Origin: Mesorhizobium loti
Lineage (GTDB): Bacteria > Pseudomonadota > Alphaproteobacteria > Rhizobiales > Rhizobiaceae
DNA: 64,000 nucleotides
NCBI GenBank assembly: GCA_014189435.1
Contig: CP050293.1
Span: 6,701,001-6,765,000, forward strand
Direction of reading: 5' to 3'
The notes below the pieces were generated by a model. The model was given only the letters and a program-made list of their open reading frames with translations. It was not told the DNA's origin and did no database searches. Each line of letters begins with the position of its first letter. Positions within the stretch are counted from its first letter, which is position 1. Made by a program: the position numbers and the translations under genes. Of this stretch, positions 19,678 through 44,794 are shown in pieces.

Positions 19678-20448
19678 ATGTCAGGCCTGCTTCTCGATCC
19701 GTGGTTCTACGCGGCCGCCATTCCGGCGGTCATTCTGGTCGGCCTGTCCAAGGGCGGCTTTGGCGGCGCTGTCGGCTTTGTCGGCGTGCCGCTGATGGCG
19801 CTGACCATGCCGCCGGTGCAGGCGGCCGCCATCCTGCTGCCGATCCTGTGCCTGATGGACATTGTCTCGGTGTGGGCATGGCGGGGTGTCTATGACCGCA
19901 AGATGCTGGTCGACATGATGCCGGGCGCCGTCATCGGCATCGGCCTCGGCTGGCTGACGGCGGCACTCGTCACCGAAGAGGCGGTGCGGCTGATCGTCGG
20001 TGCCGTCGCCATCATCTTCGTCCTGCGCTGGCTCTATCTGCAGTTCCGCCACGGCGCCGACCACGCGGCCGCGCCCAACCGCGTGGCCGCCGCCGTCTGG
20101 GGCACGGTCGCCGGCTTCACCAGCTTCGTCGCCCATGTCGGCGGCCCGCCCTTCCAGGTCTATGCCTTGCCGATCCGGCTCGATCCGAAAGTTCTGTCGG
20201 GCACCGCCGCGATCTTCTTTGCCGCCACCAATGCGCTGAAGCTGGTGCCCTATTTCGCGCTCGGCCAGTTCGACACCGCCAATCTGACAGCATCGGCGGT
20301 GCTGATGCCGCTGGCGCCGCTGTCGACCGTCGCCGGGGCGTGGCTGGTGCGTCGGATGCGGCCGGAAACCTTCTATCCCTTCACCTATGCAACCGTCGCG
20401 GTGGTGGCGCTGAAGCTGCTTTGGGATGGCATTGTTGGTCTGATGTAA
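19678..20448 (+). CDS. TauE/SafE-family sulfite/organosulfonate exporter
   Basis: The 256-residue inner-membrane protein has about eight helices and both halves of the TauE/SafE pattern: AVILVGLSKGGFGG near the start and TSFVAHVGGPPFQVYALP in the middle. The family exports small anions such as sulfite or sulfoacetate. The ATG at 19678 (MSGLLLDP) lacks a strong ribosome site, so the start is only probable. No sulfur genes are nearby, so the substrate stays open. Confidence 0.88.
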   Translation: MSGLLLDPWFYAAAIPAVILVGLSKGGFGGAVGFVGVPLMALTMPPVQAAAILLPILCLMDIVSVWAWRGVYDRKMLVDMMPGAVIGIGLGWLTAALVTEEAVRLIVGAVAIIFVLRWLYLQFRHGADHAAAPNRVAAAVWGTVAGFTSFVAHVGGPPFQVYALPIRLDPKVLSGTAAIFFAATNALKLVPYFALGQFDTANLTASAVLMPLAPLSTVAGAWLVRRMRPETFYPFTYATVAVVALKLLWDGIVGLM

Positions 20449-20488
20449 AATAGGTGAGGCGGCTGCCAGCCGTCCTCACTGCCAGGGG

Positions 20489-21040
20489 TCAGACTGCGCT
20501 CGGAACGAGGCGGCGGCTGCCGCCAAAGGCAAGTGTGGCGCCCACCACAACGACCAGCACCATGCCGGCGAGGATGCCGATGTCATGCACGGTCGGCTTG
20601 AGCACCATGTCGGCAATGATCACCAGCATCACCGCATAGTCGAAGCGTGCCGCGCTCATCATGCGTTCACCGATGGCTAGAACAGCTGGTGTGACGCCTT
20701 CCTTGGCAATCATCGCGCCCATGCGCTCGCCGGTCGGCTTGAAGATGAGCATGCCGATCGAAAAGGTCGTGGCGTAGCCGGCCAGGCCGATCAGGATCCA
20801 CAGATCGGAGAAGCCGACCCAGAACCAGCACATGATGAGACCGAAGATCAGCGTCAGCATCGACATCGGCGCAAAGAACCTGCCGCCCAGCTGACCACTG
20901 GCGCGCATCGCCTGCAGTTTTTCCTCGATGTTGCCCGCCCGTTCGGCAAGCACGCCGAGAAGGAACAGCACGAAGCCACCGCCGACCCACAGAATGGCCG
21001 TGGCGACGTGGAGGAATTTTACGATCGAGTACCAGTCCAT
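20489..21040 (-). CDS. DUF2269-type integral membrane protein
   Basis: The 183-residue protein has four or five hydrophobic segments and begins with a helix typical of DUF2269 (FLHVATAILWVGGGFVLFLL); the His there could bind heme. A second segment reads FFAPMSMLTLIFGLIMCWFW. The family has no assigned function. It is convergent with the TauE/SafE gene and stands alone. Confidence 0.8.
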   Translation of the reverse strand: MDWYSIVKFLHVATAILWVGGGFVLFLLGVLAERAGNIEEKLQAMRASGQLGGRFFAPMSMLTLIFGLIMCWFWVGFSDLWILIGLAGYATTFSIGMLIFKPTGERMGAMIAKEGVTPAVLAIGERMMSAARFDYAVMLVIIADMVLKPTVHDIGILAGMVLVVVVGATLAFGGSRRLVPSAV

Positions 21041-21368
21041 GGGTTGCTCCTGCAGTGTTCCGGTCAGGTTTGCGGCGGCGCGGATTGGCGCTGGCCGTCA
21101 GAGGAGCGAGCGTTTAGCGCCACGCCTGTTTCGGAACGATGTCACGAAAAATCCGGCTCTGTTTCAGCGCAATGAAGAAGCGGCTGAGATCGTGAACGCG
21201 CTATCTGATTTCCTGCTAATGTACGAATCGTCGGGAGGGGTTGGCGCGACATCGTCCGGAAACATCGCCGATGCTAGTGCGCTAACGCCGGGAGCCCGGT
21301 GGCGACAACAGTCGCCTGACGATCAACCCATTCCCGAGAAACGGGAAAAGGCAATTCGAGGGGACATT
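21041..21368. other. 328-bp intergenic region, long leader
   Basis: The region separates the DUF2269 gene and the small membrane protein at 21369. I see no convincing gene in it. Two small stems, GGCGAC/GTCGCC around 21301-21315 and CCCG/CGGG around 21333-21345, and a GAGGGGAC ribosome site lie close to the next start. It may simply be a long leader with promoters for both genes. Confidence 0.4.
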
Positions 21369-21749
21369 ATGCAAGGGGTAGCACGGAATTTCTTCACGCT
21401 GGCCATCATCTATGCGTTGTGCGGCATGGCGCTCGGTATCCACATGGCGATCAGCGATGACCATGGCCAGATGCCAACCCACGCCCACACGATGGTCGCC
21501 GGATGGCTGATGTCGGCGGTCTTCGCCTTTTTCTACCATCTGTTCCCGGCCGTCGGGCAAAAGGCCCTGGCCAAGGTTCACTTCTGGCTGACTGCCATCA
21601 GCGGTATCGGGCTCATGATCGGCCTTTACGTTCTGCTCGCCGGCAATCCGGGGATAGAACCGCTGCTCGGGATTTCCTCGATCGGGTTCTATGCGGGCAT
21701 GCTGCTGTTTGCATTCATTGCCCTGCCCGCCGTCTGGAAGACGGCCTGA
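21369..21749 (+). CDS. Small four-helix membrane protein with His motifs
   Basis: The 126-residue protein has four membrane helices. It carries a cluster of histidines in MPTHAHTMVAGWLM and FAFFYHLFP, a pattern reminiscent of two helices of heme-copper oxidase (CcoN/NorB-like) subunit I, but it is far too short to be an oxidase. A heme- or metal-binding role is possible and unproven. The ATG at 21369 follows GAGGGGAC. It lies upstream of the candidate small RNA and rcdA. Confidence 0.75.
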   Translation: MQGVARNFFTLAIIYALCGMALGIHMAISDDHGQMPTHAHTMVAGWLMSAVFAFFYHLFPAVGQKALAKVHFWLTAISGIGLMIGLYVLLAGNPGIEPLLGISSIGFYAGMLLFAFIALPAVWKTA

Positions 21750-21822
21750 AGCCCAAAGGCAAGGTGAGGCTGTGCTGTTACGGCACAAGATAGCGGCGTT
21801 CGGTCAAAAAACGTCCGCACCG

Positions 21823-21837
21823 TTAAGGCTTCATTAA
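21823..21837. promoter_or_regulatory. Perfect CtrA box before the candidate small RNA
   Basis: TTAA-GGCTTCA-TTAA is a perfect match to the CtrA consensus TTAA-N7-TTAA. A -10-like TACTAT follows at 21852-21857, so the box overlaps the -35 position, the usual place for activation by CtrA. Confidence 0.65.
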
Positions 21838-21863
21838 GCTTTACAGGTGTTTACTATGTTCAT

Positions 21864-21960
21864 CCAGTGATCTGGATTCTTACCGAGTGGTTGGAGCCAC
21901 TTTGTTTGACGCCTCCCTGTTAAACTCCTGAGAGCCGCCTTATCCGCGGCTCTTTTTTTG
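21864..21960 (+). ncRNA. Candidate small RNA with CtrA-type promoter
   Basis: No convincing reading frame occurs here. The interval begins about seven bases after a TACTAT -10 element and ends at a textbook terminator: stem GAGCCGC/GCGGCTC (21932-21952) followed by seven T. The body contains CCTCCCTG, an unpaired-looking anti-Shine-Dalgarno stretch often seen in rhizobial trans-acting RNAs. The estimated length is about 97 nt. It could instead be the 3' end of the 21369 mRNA, but that gene stops 180 bp upstream and a separate promoter is visible. Confidence 0.5.
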
Positions 21961-22017
21961 TCCGCATTTTCTCTTTTCGTTCGAATTTCAGAGGGGACGC
22001 CCGACATCGGCTCGCCG

Positions 22018-22032
22018 TTAACCTTCTGTTAA
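22018..22032. promoter_or_regulatory. Perfect CtrA box upstream of rcdA
   Basis: TTAA-CCTTCTG-TTAA matches the CtrA consensus exactly and lies 115 bp before the rcdA ATG. In Caulobacter rcdA is itself under CtrA control, so a feedback loop is plausible. Confidence 0.65.
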
Positions 22033-22146
22033 ACATGTGCTTGCCTTCACCGGTGACGAAGCGCATTTTCAAGCTTCAGTCAGCTAGGGTTCCGGGTGTA
22101 TCGGCAGGGAGCCGAATCAGCCGGTTGCAAGTGCAGGGGCGTATCA

Positions 22147-22680
22147 ATGAACGAGCCTTCGAAGGGCAGTGCGAAAACCGTCAAGCTGGCGGAGCGCCGG
22201 GTTTTCTCGCAATCCTTCAAGCCGCTTTACCAGGAAGGTATGGGCCTGGTCGAACAGGCGGCGGAATATCTCGACGGCAAGGGCCGGGCCGAGGCGAAGA
22301 AACTGTCCAGGCTGGCGGCCACGCTCTATGCCGCCGAATCAATGCGGCTGACCACCAGGCTGATGCAGGTTGCCTCCTGGCTGCTTTTGCAGCGCGCCGC
22401 AAATTCCGGCGAGATGACCCGCGACCAGGTCGCGTCGGAAAAGTCCAAGGTGCGTCTCGACACCGCTTCCGCCCATGACGAAGCCACCGGCTGGGCCGAA
22501 CTGCCCGAGGATTTTCTCGACCTCGTCACCCGCTCGCTGCGCCTGCAGGCGCTGGTGCGCCGCATGGACGAGGAGATTTATGGCTCCGGCGCCGTGGTCG
22601 ACATGCAACCGATGGCTCGCCGTTCCAATCCGGTTTCCGACCAGATCAGCCTGCTAAACACGGCTTTCGCCCGAGGTTAA
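22147..22680 (+). CDS. rcdA: RcdA homologue (DUF1465), regulator of CtrA degradation
   Basis: The 177-residue cytoplasmic protein is all helical and follows the DUF1465 family, to which Caulobacter RcdA belongs. Recognisable stretches are FSQSFKPLYQEGMGLVEQAA, LYAAESMRLTTRLMQVASWLL and LPEDFLDLVTRSLRLQALVRR. RcdA is an adaptor that helps ClpXP destroy CtrA at the start of replication. The ATG at 22147 has AGGGG upstream. A perfect CtrA box lies before it and ruvC follows after 76 bp. The name rests on family similarity only. Confidence 0.8.
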   Translation: MNEPSKGSAKTVKLAERRVFSQSFKPLYQEGMGLVEQAAEYLDGKGRAEAKKLSRLAATLYAAESMRLTTRLMQVASWLLLQRAANSGEMTRDQVASEKSKVRLDTASAHDEATGWAELPEDFLDLVTRSLRLQALVRRMDEEIYGSGAVVDMQPMARRSNPVSDQISLLNTAFARG

Positions 22681-22756
22681 ACCTCGCTCCGCATTTCCGT
22701 TTCCGGTTTGTTCACATTTCGCTGGCATCGCTATCGGCCGGAGGTAAACTCGGCAC

Positions 22757-23266
22757 ATGGCGGAAGCGATTCGTATCATCGGTATCGATCCCGGGCTTCG
22801 GCGCACCGGCTGGGGCATCGTCGAAAGCCTCGGCAATTCGCTGCGCTTCATTGCCTCCGGCACGGTAAAGTCCGACGACAAGGCGGCGCTGGCGACGCGG
22901 CTGTGCCAATTGCATGACGGGCTAGCCGAGATCCTGCATAGCGCCATGCCGCACGAGGCGGCCGTCGAACAGACCTTCGTCAACAAGGACGCCGTGGCGA
23001 CGCTGAAACTCGGCCAGGCGCGCGGCATCGCCATGCTGGTGCCGGCGCGTGCGGGCCTCGTCGTTGCCGAGTATGCGCCCAATGCGGTCAAGAAGGCGGT
23101 GATCGGCGTTGGCCATGGCGACAAGAAGCAGATTCACATGATGGTGAAAGTGCTGTTGCCGAAAGCCATTTTCGATACCGAACATGCCGCCGACGCGCTG
23201 GCCATCGCCATCTGCCACGCGCATCACCGGCAAAGCGTGGCCTACAGGATGGCGCTTGCCGGTTAG
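22757..23266 (+). CDS. ruvC: Holliday junction resolvase RuvC
   Basis: The 169-residue endonuclease cuts Holliday junctions moved by RuvAB. The catalytic acids are visible: Asp11 in [13 protein letters not shown], Glu71 in [10 protein letters not shown], and the C-terminal pair in [15 protein letters not shown]. The length is normal. It is the first ruv gene here, but ruvA does not follow directly because a VapBC pair occupies the gap. The start ATG at 22757 is preceded by GGAGGT. Confidence 0.97.
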
Positions 23267-23274
23267 CGATGTTC

Positions 23275-23314
23275 TTGACTTGTTCACATAGTTGGAATAT
23301 TCCTTACTTGTAAG
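23275..23314 (+). promoter_or_regulatory. vapBC-1 promoter and operator
   Basis: TTGACT (23275-23280) and TATTCC (23298-23303) are spaced 17 bp. Directly at and after the -10 lies the palindrome CTTAC-TT-GTAAG (23303-23314). An AbrB-type antitoxin bound there would shut off its own promoter, which also leads into ruvA. Confidence 0.55.
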
Positions 23315-23327
23315 AAAGGTGTGTTTC

Positions 23328-23579
23328 ATGCGTGTGACGAGCAAAGGCCAAGTGACAATCCCACGGGATCTGCGGGAGACATTTGGGATTGGCGCCAACA
23401 GCGAAGTCATCTTCGGCATCGAGGGCGGCAAGATCACGATCACACCGAAGCATGACAAGGGGCGGTTGGCTGATCGCGAAAGACTGGATCGTTTTCTTGC
23501 TGCACTCGACCGGCTTGAGGGCAGCGGCGATCAGACAATGAATGCCGATGCCGTCATGGCTTTGACCCGGGATCGCTGA
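23328..23579 (+). CDS. AbrB/SpoVT-type antitoxin, VapB-like (pair 1)
   Basis: The 83-residue protein is a swapped-hairpin AbrB antitoxin: RVTSKGQVTIPRDLRETFGI binds DNA and the C-terminal tail (DRFLAALDRLEGSG) should wrap around the toxin. The ATG at 23328 has AAGGTG upstream. It is followed two bases later by the PIN-domain toxin. The pair stands inside ruvC-ruvA. It should repress its own promoter through the palindrome at 23303. Confidence 0.9.
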   Translation: MRVTSKGQVTIPRDLRETFGIGANSEVIFGIEGGKITITPKHDKGRLADRERLDRFLAALDRLEGSGDQTMNADAVMALTRDR

Positions 23580-23581
23580 TC

Positions 23582-23995
23582 TTGGCGACGCTTGTCGACA
23601 CCAACGTGCTTATCGATATCGCCGTTCGCGATCCCGTCTGGTCAAAGTGGTCGTGGTCCAAGATGGTGTCTGCCCTCGAGCAAGGCAGCCTGGTCATCAA
23701 TCAGATTATCTACGCCGAGTTTTCGATGCGCTATGAGGCGATAGACGATGTCGATGATGCCTTGCCTGAAGATGAGTTCCGGCGCGAAAGCCTCCCGTTC
23801 GAAGCGGCCTTTGCGGCATCGAGAGCGTTCTCGGTCTATCGGCGGTTGGGCGGACCCCGAGAGAAGGTGATGCCCGACTTCCTGATTGGGGCTCACGCTG
23901 CCATCCGAGGCTATCCCATTCTTACTCGCGATCCCGCAGGTTTCAGAAAGTACTTTCCAGATGTCGAGCTCATTACGCCCGATACTCATCCCTAA
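23582..23995 (+). CDS. VapC-type PIN-domain ribonuclease toxin (pair 1)
   Basis: The 137-residue PIN nuclease keeps all four acidic residues: Asp6 (LVDTNVLID), Glu46 (IYAEFS), Asp99 (MPDFLIG) and Asp117 (TRDPAGF), so it should be active. VapC toxins cut tRNA or rRNA. It starts at a TTG two bases after the antitoxin stop, which may keep toxin levels low. It ends 15 bp before ruvA and may be co-transcribed with it. Confidence 0.9.
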   Translation: MATLVDTNVLIDIAVRDPVWSKWSWSKMVSALEQGSLVINQIIYAEFSMRYEAIDDVDDALPEDEFRRESLPFEAAFAASRAFSVYRRLGGPREKVMPDFLIGAHAAIRGYPILTRDPAGFRKYFPDVELITPDTHP

Positions 23996-24010
23996 CGGGG
24001 GCTGCGTCCA

Positions 24011-24631
24011 ATGATCGGCAAGCTCAAGGGCACGCTCGACGAGGTCGACGAGGATCATTGCCTCGTCGACATCCATGGCGTCGGCTACGTCGCCTATTGC
24101 TCGGCGCGCACGCTGGCGGCGCTGCCTTCGCCCGGCGAAGCGGTAGTGCTGTTCATCGAAACCTATGTGCGCGAGGATATGCTGCGGCTCTACGGCTTCC
24201 AGTCGCAGCTCGAGCGTGAGTGGTTCCGGCTGCTGATGAACAATGTGCCGGGCGTTGGCGCCAAGGTGGCGCTGGCCATCCTGTCGACGCTGGCGCCGGC
24301 CGACCTCGCCAATGCCATTGCGCTGCGCGACATCGCCATGGTTTCGCGCGCGCCCGGCGTCGGCAAGAAAGTGGCCGAGCGCATCGTCACCGAATTGAAG
24401 AACAAGGCGCCGGCCTATGCCGGAACCGCCTCGGGCACCATCGGCCTGAAGCAGGAGCTGGGCGACGGCGTGGCCTCCGCGCCGATCACCGACGCCGTCT
24501 CGGCGCTGGTCAATCTCGGCTATTCGCGCGACACCGCCGCCAATGCGGTGGCGGCGGCGCTGAAGACGGCGGGCGAGGATGCCGATGCGCCGAAATTGAT
24601 CCGCTTCGGGCTGAAGGAACTGGCGCGGTGA
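24011..24631 (+). CDS. ruvA: Holliday junction branch migration protein RuvA
   Basis: The 206-residue protein binds the four-way junction as a tetramer and loads RuvB. It has the N-terminal OB domain ([25 protein letters not shown] region), tandem helix-hairpin-helix motifs ([18 protein letters not shown] and [16 protein letters not shown]), and the small C-terminal domain ([19 protein letters not shown]) that contacts RuvB. It lies between the two VapBC pairs, which is unusual. Confidence 0.97.
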
Positions 24632-42887: not shown

Positions 42888-42902
42888 TTAAACGCCTTTT
42901 AA
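42888..42902. promoter_or_regulatory. Perfect CtrA box upstream of the first Omp25-like gene
   Basis: TTAA-ACGCCTT-TTAA matches the CtrA consensus exactly. A CATTAT -10-like element follows at 42914-42919 and the gene starts 84 bp downstream of the box. Confidence 0.65.
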
Positions 42903-42985
42903 CCTTTGCAATTCATTATCCACGACTGAAAGCCAATCGCATTTCGGGCGGGTTCGCCGTTCCGAGCTTCTCAGGGGTGACAAGC

Positions 42986-43822
42986 ATGTTCAATACAGCA
43001 AGAAAGGTCCTGCTCGCCTTACTGTTCGCGGGCCTGGCAGGACCGTTGTTCGCAGCCGACCTGCCGGAGCCGGTGGTCGAAGAAGCTCCGCCTCAGGCGG
43101 TCTACGAACAGCCGGCCGAAGTCGGCGGCTGGTACATCCGCGGCGACATCGACTATCACAAGTCGACCGTGCGTGGCATCGACTACATGACCTACACCGT
43201 CGATCCCTGTAATTGTACGGTCACGCCCGGCACCAGAAGTTTCGATTTCGGCAAGCTCAAGGGCGGCTTCTCGCTCGGCGCCGGCGTCGGCTACAAGATC
43301 AACGACCACTTCCGTACCGATCTGACCGCTGACTACTGGTTCAAGTCGAACTTCAACGGCGGCACCTCGGATATCAACGGAACATCGACCGAAGTGTCGA
43401 AGATGAGCGCCTTGCTGCTGCTGGCCAATGCCTATGTCGATATCGGCACCTATCACGGCATCACGCCCTATGTCGGCGCCGGCATCGGCGGTGCGCGCGT
43501 CAAGTGGGATACTGTCTACGACCCGAACACCACCGAGACCAATCCGGGAGCGTCCAACTGGCGTTTCGCCTACGCTGTGATGGCCGGCGCTTCTTACTGC
43601 CTGACCGACAAGATCATCCTCGATGCTGGCTACCGCTTCAGCCATATCCAGGGCGGCCGCATGTTCGAATGGGACGTGAGCAGCTCCGGCCCCGGCTTCG
43701 ACCGCGGCATCAACACGCACGAAGTGCGCGGTGGCCTGCGCTATCAGTTCGGCGGCAACAATGGTTGCGCCGCACCGGTCGTCGCCTACCAGCCCGAACC
43801 CGAGCCGATCTACACCAAGTAA
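42986..43822 (+). CDS. Omp25/Omp31-like outer-membrane beta-barrel (first copy)
   Basis: The 278-residue protein has a signal peptide (LLALLFAGLAGPLFAADL) and an eight-stranded barrel pattern: GGWYIRGDIDYH, AGVGYKINDHFRTDLTADYWF, GTYHGITPYVGAGIGGARV and a C-terminal HEVRGGLRYQFGG. It has rare extra cysteines (DPCNCTV and NNGCA). The ATG at 42986 follows AGGGG by eight bases; a GTG at 42977 overlaps that site. A second relative follows. Confidence 0.88.
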   Translation: MFNTARKVLLALLFAGLAGPLFAADLPEPVVEEAPPQAVYEQPAEVGGWYIRGDIDYHKSTVRGIDYMTYTVDPCNCTVTPGTRSFDFGKLKGGFSLGAGVGYKINDHFRTDLTADYWFKSNFNGGTSDINGTSTEVSKMSALLLLANAYVDIGTYHGITPYVGAGIGGARVKWDTVYDPNTTETNPGASNWRFAYAVMAGASYCLTDKIILDAGYRFSHIQGGRMFEWDVSSSGPGFDRGINTHEVRGGLRYQFGGNNGCAAPVVAYQPEPEPIYTK

Positions 43823-43931: not shown

Positions 43932-43946
43932 TTAACCGGCACTTAA
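43932..43946. promoter_or_regulatory. Perfect CtrA box upstream of the second Omp25-like gene
   Basis: TTAA-CCGGCAC-TTAA matches the CtrA consensus exactly; a further palindrome GGTTAAC follows at 43954. It lies 81 bp before the ATG. Confidence 0.65.
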
Positions 43947-44026
43947 CCACTATGGTTAACAATGCTCCTTGAAACGATGGCTGCCGTTGCGATTGCTTGC
44001 GGCGCCAAATTCGGGAGTCGGGGACC

Positions 44027-44794
44027 ATGAAACTCATATCGCGTATGGCGCTTGTCGCACTCGCCCTCGCACCGCTGACGCCCGTGCATGCAGCCGACTA
44101 CGATCCGCCGGTCTATGTCGACCAGGCGCCCGACTATGTGCCGGTCGAGGTCGGCTCCGGCTGGTATCTGCGCGGCGATGTCTCCTATCTGCCGCAGAAG
44201 AGCTTCGACAATCAGGATTTCGCCTCCGCGACGGCGAGCTTCAGCAACAAGGAAGATCCGATCTTTGCCAGCATCGGCTTCGGCTACCATTTCAACGACT
44301 ATCTGCGCGCCGACCTCAATCTCGGCTATCTGCCCGGCAACAAGATCGGCGTCGGCTATGACGATACCGCGACCGTGATAGCGCCAGCTACGGCGACCGT
44401 GGCATCGGCGTCCCTGAAGAACTACGCCTTGTCGGGCATCCTCAACGGCTATGTCGATCTTGGCACCTATGTCGGGATCACGCCCTATCTCGGCGCCGGT
44501 ATCGGTGTCGTCCGCAGCAAGCGCAGCCTGTCGGCGAGTTATTTCACAAACAATGGCGACGACACGGACGATTTCGTGGTGAGCGACAGCAAGACCCAGT
44601 ACTCCCTGGCCTACACGCTGAATGCCGGCCTCGCCTACCAGCTGTCGAAGAATGTCTCCGTCGATCTGGGCTACCAGTATTTTTCCGCCCCCGAAGCCGA
44701 ATACGTAACGGCAGAGAGCCTGAATTCCTATCCGATCCGCAAGGGGATCAGCAATCATCAGGTCAAGCTCGGGCTGCGCTACGATCTCTGGTAG
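44027..44794 (+). CDS. Omp25/Omp31-like outer-membrane beta-barrel (second copy)
   Basis: The 255-residue protein has a signal peptide (ALVALALAPLTPVHAAD) and the same barrel order as its neighbour: GSGWYLRGDVSYL, GFGYHFNDYLRADLNLGYL, GTYVGITPYLGAGIGVVRS, and an ending HQVKLGLRYDLW. It is clearly related to the first copy but not recently duplicated. It has no cysteines in the loops. Its own CtrA box and terminator make it an independent unit. Confidence 0.88.
   Translation: MKLISRMALVALALAPLTPVHAADYDPPVYVDQAPDYVPVEVGSGWYLRGDVSYLPQKSFDNQDFASATASFSNKEDPIFASIGFGYHFNDYLRADLNLGYLPGNKIGVGYDDTATVIAPATATVASASLKNYALSGILNGYVDLGTYVGITPYLGAGIGVVRSKRSLSASYFTNNGDDTDDFVVSDSKTQYSLAYTLNAGLAYQLSKNVSVDLGYQYFSAPEAEYVTAESLNSYPIRKGISNHQVKLGLRYDLW

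Follow-up and report, generated by a model that had tools for sequence, protein, structure and literature searches.

The window, a 64,000-nt stretch of Mesorhizobium loti DNA, carries on its forward strand a promoter, a small RNA and a protein gene in close succession. A perfect CtrA-type box, TTAA-N7-TTAA (TTAAGGCTTCATTAA), occupies 21823-21837, in the -35 position for transcription of the small RNA, and the -10 region TTTACTAT follows at 21850-21857. The RNA, of about 99 nt (21861-21959), closes with an intrinsic terminator (21930-21959). About 190 nt beyond the terminator lies rcdA (22147-22680), the gene for an adaptor in CtrA proteolysis; its identification by NCBIfam NF051867 (205.1 bits, cut-off 170) and PF07323 confirms the adjacency to rcdA claimed in the first-pass annotation. 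The perfect box is likewise present where it was claimed, at the -35 position. The -10 element needs a small correction, as the one common to relatives is TATNACT, represented here by TTTACT (21850-21855), two bases upstream of the TACTAT originally named. The start site, and with it the 5' end of the RNA, is an estimate based on where hairpin 1 begins and on its distance to the -10. A second perfect box (22018-22032), absent from the earlier annotation, sits between terminator and rcdA and possibly belongs to rcdA's own promoter.

Identity of the RNA is provided by Rfam. The segment 21816-21959 matches family RF02356 (BjrC1505) with 71.1 bits against a cut-off of 50, over model positions 1-140 of 140. 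The first ~46 of these positions cover the box and the -10 rather than the RNA, as hairpin 1 starts only at 21862. With a full-length match above the gathering score, hairpins that show compensatory changes and the CCUCCC stretch in common with BjrC1505, the comparison indicates a genuine small RNA gene belonging to a known family. The proposal of a candidate small RNA with a CtrA-type promoter beside rcdA is thus upheld, with strong comparative evidence, while its novelty is not, the family having been described already. MmgR/suhB (RF00519) resembles the RNA in having a CCUCCC stretch and then a terminator, and was rejected as its family at 21.5 bits against a cut-off of 41.

The RNA is predicted to fold stably (21861-21960, -36.7 kcal/mol, z -5.43), with none of 200 shuffles equally good. 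Hairpin 1 (AUCCAG/CUGGAU, 21862-21877), hairpin 2 (a GAGUGG side with a CCACU side, 21885-21902) and the terminator stem-loop (21930-21954) are the three helices that covary. In 60 diverse sequences, 15 of 19 pairs are changed on both sides, with 95.8% of cells paired and double changes in 58 cells. Not one of 500 shuffles attains these values, in a test that favors this structure, since it was drawn from the same alignment, and with shuffles that do not preserve relatedness. Sliding the partners by 1-3 columns leaves a far lower signal. Between hairpin 2 and the terminator, a further predicted hairpin (21904-21925) presents CCUCCC (21912-21917, within CCTCCCTG at 21912-21919) in a six-base loop, so that the anti-ribosome-site stretch noted earlier is indeed there and is exposed in the prediction. 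The terminator, too, is as described, with seven T downstream of about 100 nt of RNA. The scan for such sites gives 5 in 20000-24000 where 4.5 are expected and so constitutes no evidence; the weight rests on the conservation and covariation of the terminator.

A covariance search in the order, one of the checks suggested with the first-pass annotation, finds RF02356 at E 0.001 in 245 of 297 genomes (212 over cut-off). The corresponding numbers are 96 of 121 for the family (67 over cut-off) and 30 of 289 for the class (14 over cut-off), the three sets being overlapping samples, and there were zero matches in 14 control genomes, presumably including Caulobacter vibrioides. From 207 loci we retained 193 (13 lack the core string and one has two copies), of which 188 have 150 nt on both sides and 172 remain after removal of near-duplicates. 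Since these sets and the alignment were built to contain the core GACGCCTCCCTG, its lack of variation in them is uninformative. A small protein running through the core was considered and rejected: 4 of the 172 loci have an in-frame ATG, 63 meet a stop within 60 nt, and no reading frame through the core is conserved among them. A GANTC methylation site is found in 69 of 172 (24% of shuffles), mostly at one position, in hairpin 1. A comparison of 21700-22200 with a plasmid collection gave no match.

How much the box itself says depends on the background chosen. The window has four perfect boxes and 100 dinucleotide shuffles have none; the whole 8.33 Mb genome (three contigs) has 34, compared with 41 for the same letters reversed. 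The motif alone therefore proves nothing, and it is the conserved position that carries the weight. In the 172 loci, the best box window 130-60 nt before the core has 8 of 8 half-site bases in 84, 7 in 85 and 6 in 3; 169 of 172 score 7 or 8 in this way, compared with roughly 0.3% of 3440 windows drawn at random from these loci. In 167 non-redundant loci a box of at least 7 precedes the core by 78-90 nt, the five exceptions being three that score 6 (L063, L093 and L183) and two in which it is displaced (L079 and L087). As RF02356 spans the promoter, loci found with it lean towards the box, a bias that promoter-blind sets answer. Among the matches listed, 101 loci were found only by the 18-base core, and 99 of them have a box of at least 7 at the usual place, a score that 5.3% of 5050 shuffles attain anywhere in the stretch. 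These 99 rows were already picked for the box, hence half-site conservation in them is selection. Within the same rows among the matches listed, the five inner spacer bases hold at most 0.3 bits each and the outer two favor C and A, 40 rows read TTTA at the first half-site (Bradyrhizobium included), and both the CTTT after the box and the TATNACT -10 are conserved though not selected. Among 57 aligned box-bearing loci, 41 have a box that starts 38-40 nt upstream of hairpin 1, which puts it at about -39 to -25 if hairpin 1 is the transcription start. As comparative evidence this argues strongly for a CtrA-type promoter that is deeply conserved. In one family outside the order (L064-L066) the RNA occurs with the box TTAATTGTAATTTAA, hairpin 2 shows a compensating change to GATTGG/CCAATC, and there is no RcdA within the 1.5 kb examined.

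We consider it probable that the interval is a BjrC1505-family RNA gene under direct CtrA control, whose product acts in trans by masking ribosome-binding sites. What the sequences show directly is the family and structure of the RNA, the box with its constant location, and the synteny with rcdA, and the TTAA-N7-TTAA box is located at the promoter, as for a direct CtrA target. The rest of the mechanism we infer. Phosphorylated CtrA would bind the box over the -35 region and, when abundant, would most likely activate transcription, which would stop at the RNA's own terminator, ~190 nt short of rcdA. The ~99-nt RNA would then fold into stable hairpins presenting CCUCCC, and this stretch would block the translation of mRNAs from other loci by pairing with their GGGAGG-type ribosome-binding sites. 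Several observations count against this reading: the motif is not over-represented in the genome relative to its reversed letters, many rows carry TTTA as the first half-site, the loci inspected gave no conserved target, and an RNA-seq screen of Mesorhizobium huakuii has no candidate annotated as BjrC1505.

The position of the box would also permit repression. CtrA of Caulobacter is both activator and repressor, and the box covers the -35 region of almost every relative examined, as one would see if CtrA occluded the -35 of a real RNA that appears once the ClpXP-CpdR-RcdA route degrades CtrA. We judge this improbable: a sigma-70 scan found no promoter at this place, which leaves no evident -35 for CtrA to cover, and the spacing from box to -10 resembles that of activated CtrA promoters.

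The second partner in the arrangement is rcdA. Of 193 oriented loci, 174 have it downstream in the same orientation, as do 155 of the 172 non-redundant ones, and the core and the first aligned RcdA residue are 144-582 nt apart. Such synteny is also what would follow if the RNA were a leader or attenuator of rcdA, with CtrA-driven transcription that mostly terminates and partly reads through, the conserved unit being an upstream rcdA promoter. We hold this to be unlikely, given that a covarying terminator stands between RNA and rcdA, that another box lies past the terminator in this genome, and that RNA and box are kept where RcdA was not found. Twelve non-redundant loci with at least 1.4 kb downstream have no forward rcdA; all are boxed (7 or 8), two with the box displaced. 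One of the twelve has rcdA reversed on the other side. The remaining 11 have no RcdA by profile, all with a box of 7 or 8 and nine with it at the usual place; ten of these 11 stretches end ~1.5 kb downstream, so rcdA may lie beyond. A box that persists where RcdA is not found is tied to the RNA and not to rcdA. The same observation makes it very improbable that the box serves rcdA regulation only and the RNA is nearby by accident. CtrA motifs have indeed been predicted before rcdA in Sinorhizobium meliloti and agrobacteria (PMC3616915, PMC10469942), but the spacing of the box is conserved relative to the RNA and variable relative to rcdA, and a separate perfect box lies between terminator and rcdA in 48 of 155 loci (a raw count, without a control). 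On the other side of the RNA the gene at 21369 has an upstream homologue in only 21 of 164 loci; as the upstream gene is not conserved, the RNA is unlikely to be a product of its 3' end, the outcome against which the first-pass annotation had cautioned.

Diverged copies extend the arrangement of box, RNA and rcdA. A covariance model of the RNA alone, with the box excluded (R1), recovers the RNA at loci that RF02356 scores low or misses. A search with the RcdA protein only gave eight named records, and the four examined (S. meliloti Ak57, Shinella sp. PSBB067, Methylobacterium bullatum and Sinorhizobium sp. K101; L228-L231) all have the order box, RNA, rcdA, with boxes of 8, 8, 7 and 8 of 8, respectively. 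The RNA of S. meliloti scores 40.3 bits with R1 (E 5e-7 in 150 kb) behind a perfect TTAACCGCAAATTAA box; its core is altered and CUCCCUG is kept. This S. meliloti record (CP090106.1) is labelled plasmid pSymB and may be a mislabelled chromosome, as it has 3.72 Mb and carries rcdA and rpmE. At E 0.001, R1 finds matches in 48 of 240 class genomes; those beyond the order are often weak, and some do not precede rcdA. A renewed search of 38 loci with R1 gave 31 in which rcdA follows and 36 in which a box of 7 or 8 is present; in two of these 36 (L082 and L211) the best-scoring window is misplaced. The two box misses are L086 and L088, and L088 is a false match that resembles a tRNA.

A published finding in S. 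meliloti might now be explained. ChIP-seq places CtrA in the rcdA promoter region, and rcdA is unchanged on CtrA depletion by array, qPCR and lacZ fusion (PMC4433202), a lack of response that also speaks against the RNA as an rcdA leader. A small RNA promoter before rcdA could account for a CtrA signal without an rcdA response; the rcdA-proximal box could also be the one bound. In agrobacteria, all three lineages have several start sites for rcdA, and the CtrA site lies farther upstream than that of Caulobacter (PMC10469942). These data suit the leader explanation; they also fit, without proving it, an RNA promoter upstream of rcdA.

Comparison with the cell-cycle RNAs CcnA and EcpR1 provides a precedent and one rejected identity. 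CcnA of Caulobacter crescentus has a predicted CtrA promoter site, and its C-rich loop has been suggested to target ribosome sites; it differs in sitting at the replication origin and in acting on ctrA and gcrA (PMC8959179). By analogy, CcnA offers a functional precedent for a CtrA-linked RNA. CcnA-like genes were reported by GLASSgo in several other families, with none clearly in S. meliloti (PMC8959179). EcpR1 of S. meliloti is also a conserved cell-cycle small RNA of the Rhizobiales with a terminator and an exposed loop, but has a stress-induced sigma-70 promoter and lies downstream of divK-pleD (PMC4414408). The RNA of the window has the 21369 gene and rcdA as neighbors, and an identity with EcpR1 was rejected on these grounds.

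Target prediction with the CCUCCC stretch, also suggested at the outset, yields no conserved target among the loci inspected in the own, genus and order genomes. For rcdA itself, pairing of at least 9 (G-U allowed) is found in 28% of 155 start regions, in 9% of shuffles and in 0 of 30 ruvC regions. Exact pairings are dominated by GAGGCGT (24 cases, by eye mostly Bradyrhizobium-like loci), and the window has only GGGGCGT; any role of rcdA as a target is thus weakly indicated, with pairing only in some lineages. In the own genome, ACAGGGAGG occurs before ATG 8 times and GGGAGGCG 44 times (reversed-letter controls 5 and 10; loci inspected for 38 of the 52 rows), an excess that is expected from ribosome sites themselves. 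The best own-genome pairing, with 11 pairs, is at a 56-codon frame. Across 15 genus genomes, one recurring match precedes only a 9-codon frame in this genome and another a gene that by eye resembles a sugar isomerase. An order-wide pattern search (121 genomes, 78 matching) showed no gene recurring between families among 50 loci inspected, at least four of which are the same place twice. Six of seven recurring matches checked that extend into the complement of the RNA are the antisense of the RNA itself. In the leaders of ctrA and gcrA, on which CcnA acts, no clear GGGAGG site was seen in the order: GGGAGG or AGGGAG is near the start in 0 of 30 ctrA and 2 of 30 gcrA loci (taken from 56 and 61 genomes, respectively, with a single energy value and no control beyond 70 nt upstream). 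The ctrA leaders mostly have AAGGGGATT or alike, with ~5 pairs, and the gcrA leaders have no clear site.

The founding study of BjrC1505, by Madhugiri in 2012, reportedly described expression in Bradyrhizobium. Our search, in the open literature consulted, found no published statement on a box promoter or an rcdA neighbor for BjrC1505, and no paper that uses RF02356 as a term. In the part of a Herbaspirillum study available, BjrC1505 appears as a table entry, and rcdA is absent from the main text of the S. meliloti small RNA papers. A Mesorhizobium huakuii RNA-seq screen lists 40 candidates, none annotated as BjrC1505 (PMC5596092; by annotation only). The available text of a Methylosinus sporium transcript map gives EcpR1 and ar45 by Rfam and does not name BjrC1505 (PMC12403871), and a 2020 review gives two cell-cycle small RNAs for S. 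meliloti, EcpR1 and GspR (PMC7143759). The family is known; of its promoter box and conserved place before rcdA we have found no account in the literature consulted.

That box, RNA and rcdA are mostly kept together across the order suggests an unrecognized RNA arm of the cell-cycle circuit. If CtrA controls it, an order-wide conserved RNA would provide CtrA with a direct RNA output, and a published S. meliloti binding site without effect on its supposed gene would be accounted for. More tentatively, BjrC1505 RNAs may be an ancestral, order-wide RNA output of CtrA and the counterpart of CcnA, ending the previous programme together with the neighboring RcdA as CtrA rises; CtrA binding in the S. 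meliloti rcdA region would then be at the promoter of the RNA, unseen as its core diverged below the Rfam threshold. The RNA would also offer one short promoter for testing CtrA control in tractable strains.

Other elements of the window are recorded here. A VapBC-like pair (23328-23995), consisting of a MazE-like antitoxin (PF04014) and a PIN-domain gene (PF01850), sits between ruvC (22757-23266) and ruvA (24011-24631). The window holds 4 of the 34 perfect boxes of the genome, and the two away from rcdA (42888-42902 and 43932-43946) lie 89 and 65 nt upstream of the frames 42977-43822 and 43997-44794, respectively, which by eye resemble outer-membrane beta-barrel proteins. Also over cut-off are a serC leader (RF00517, 44944-44995) and a TPP riboswitch (RF00059, 55218-55332).
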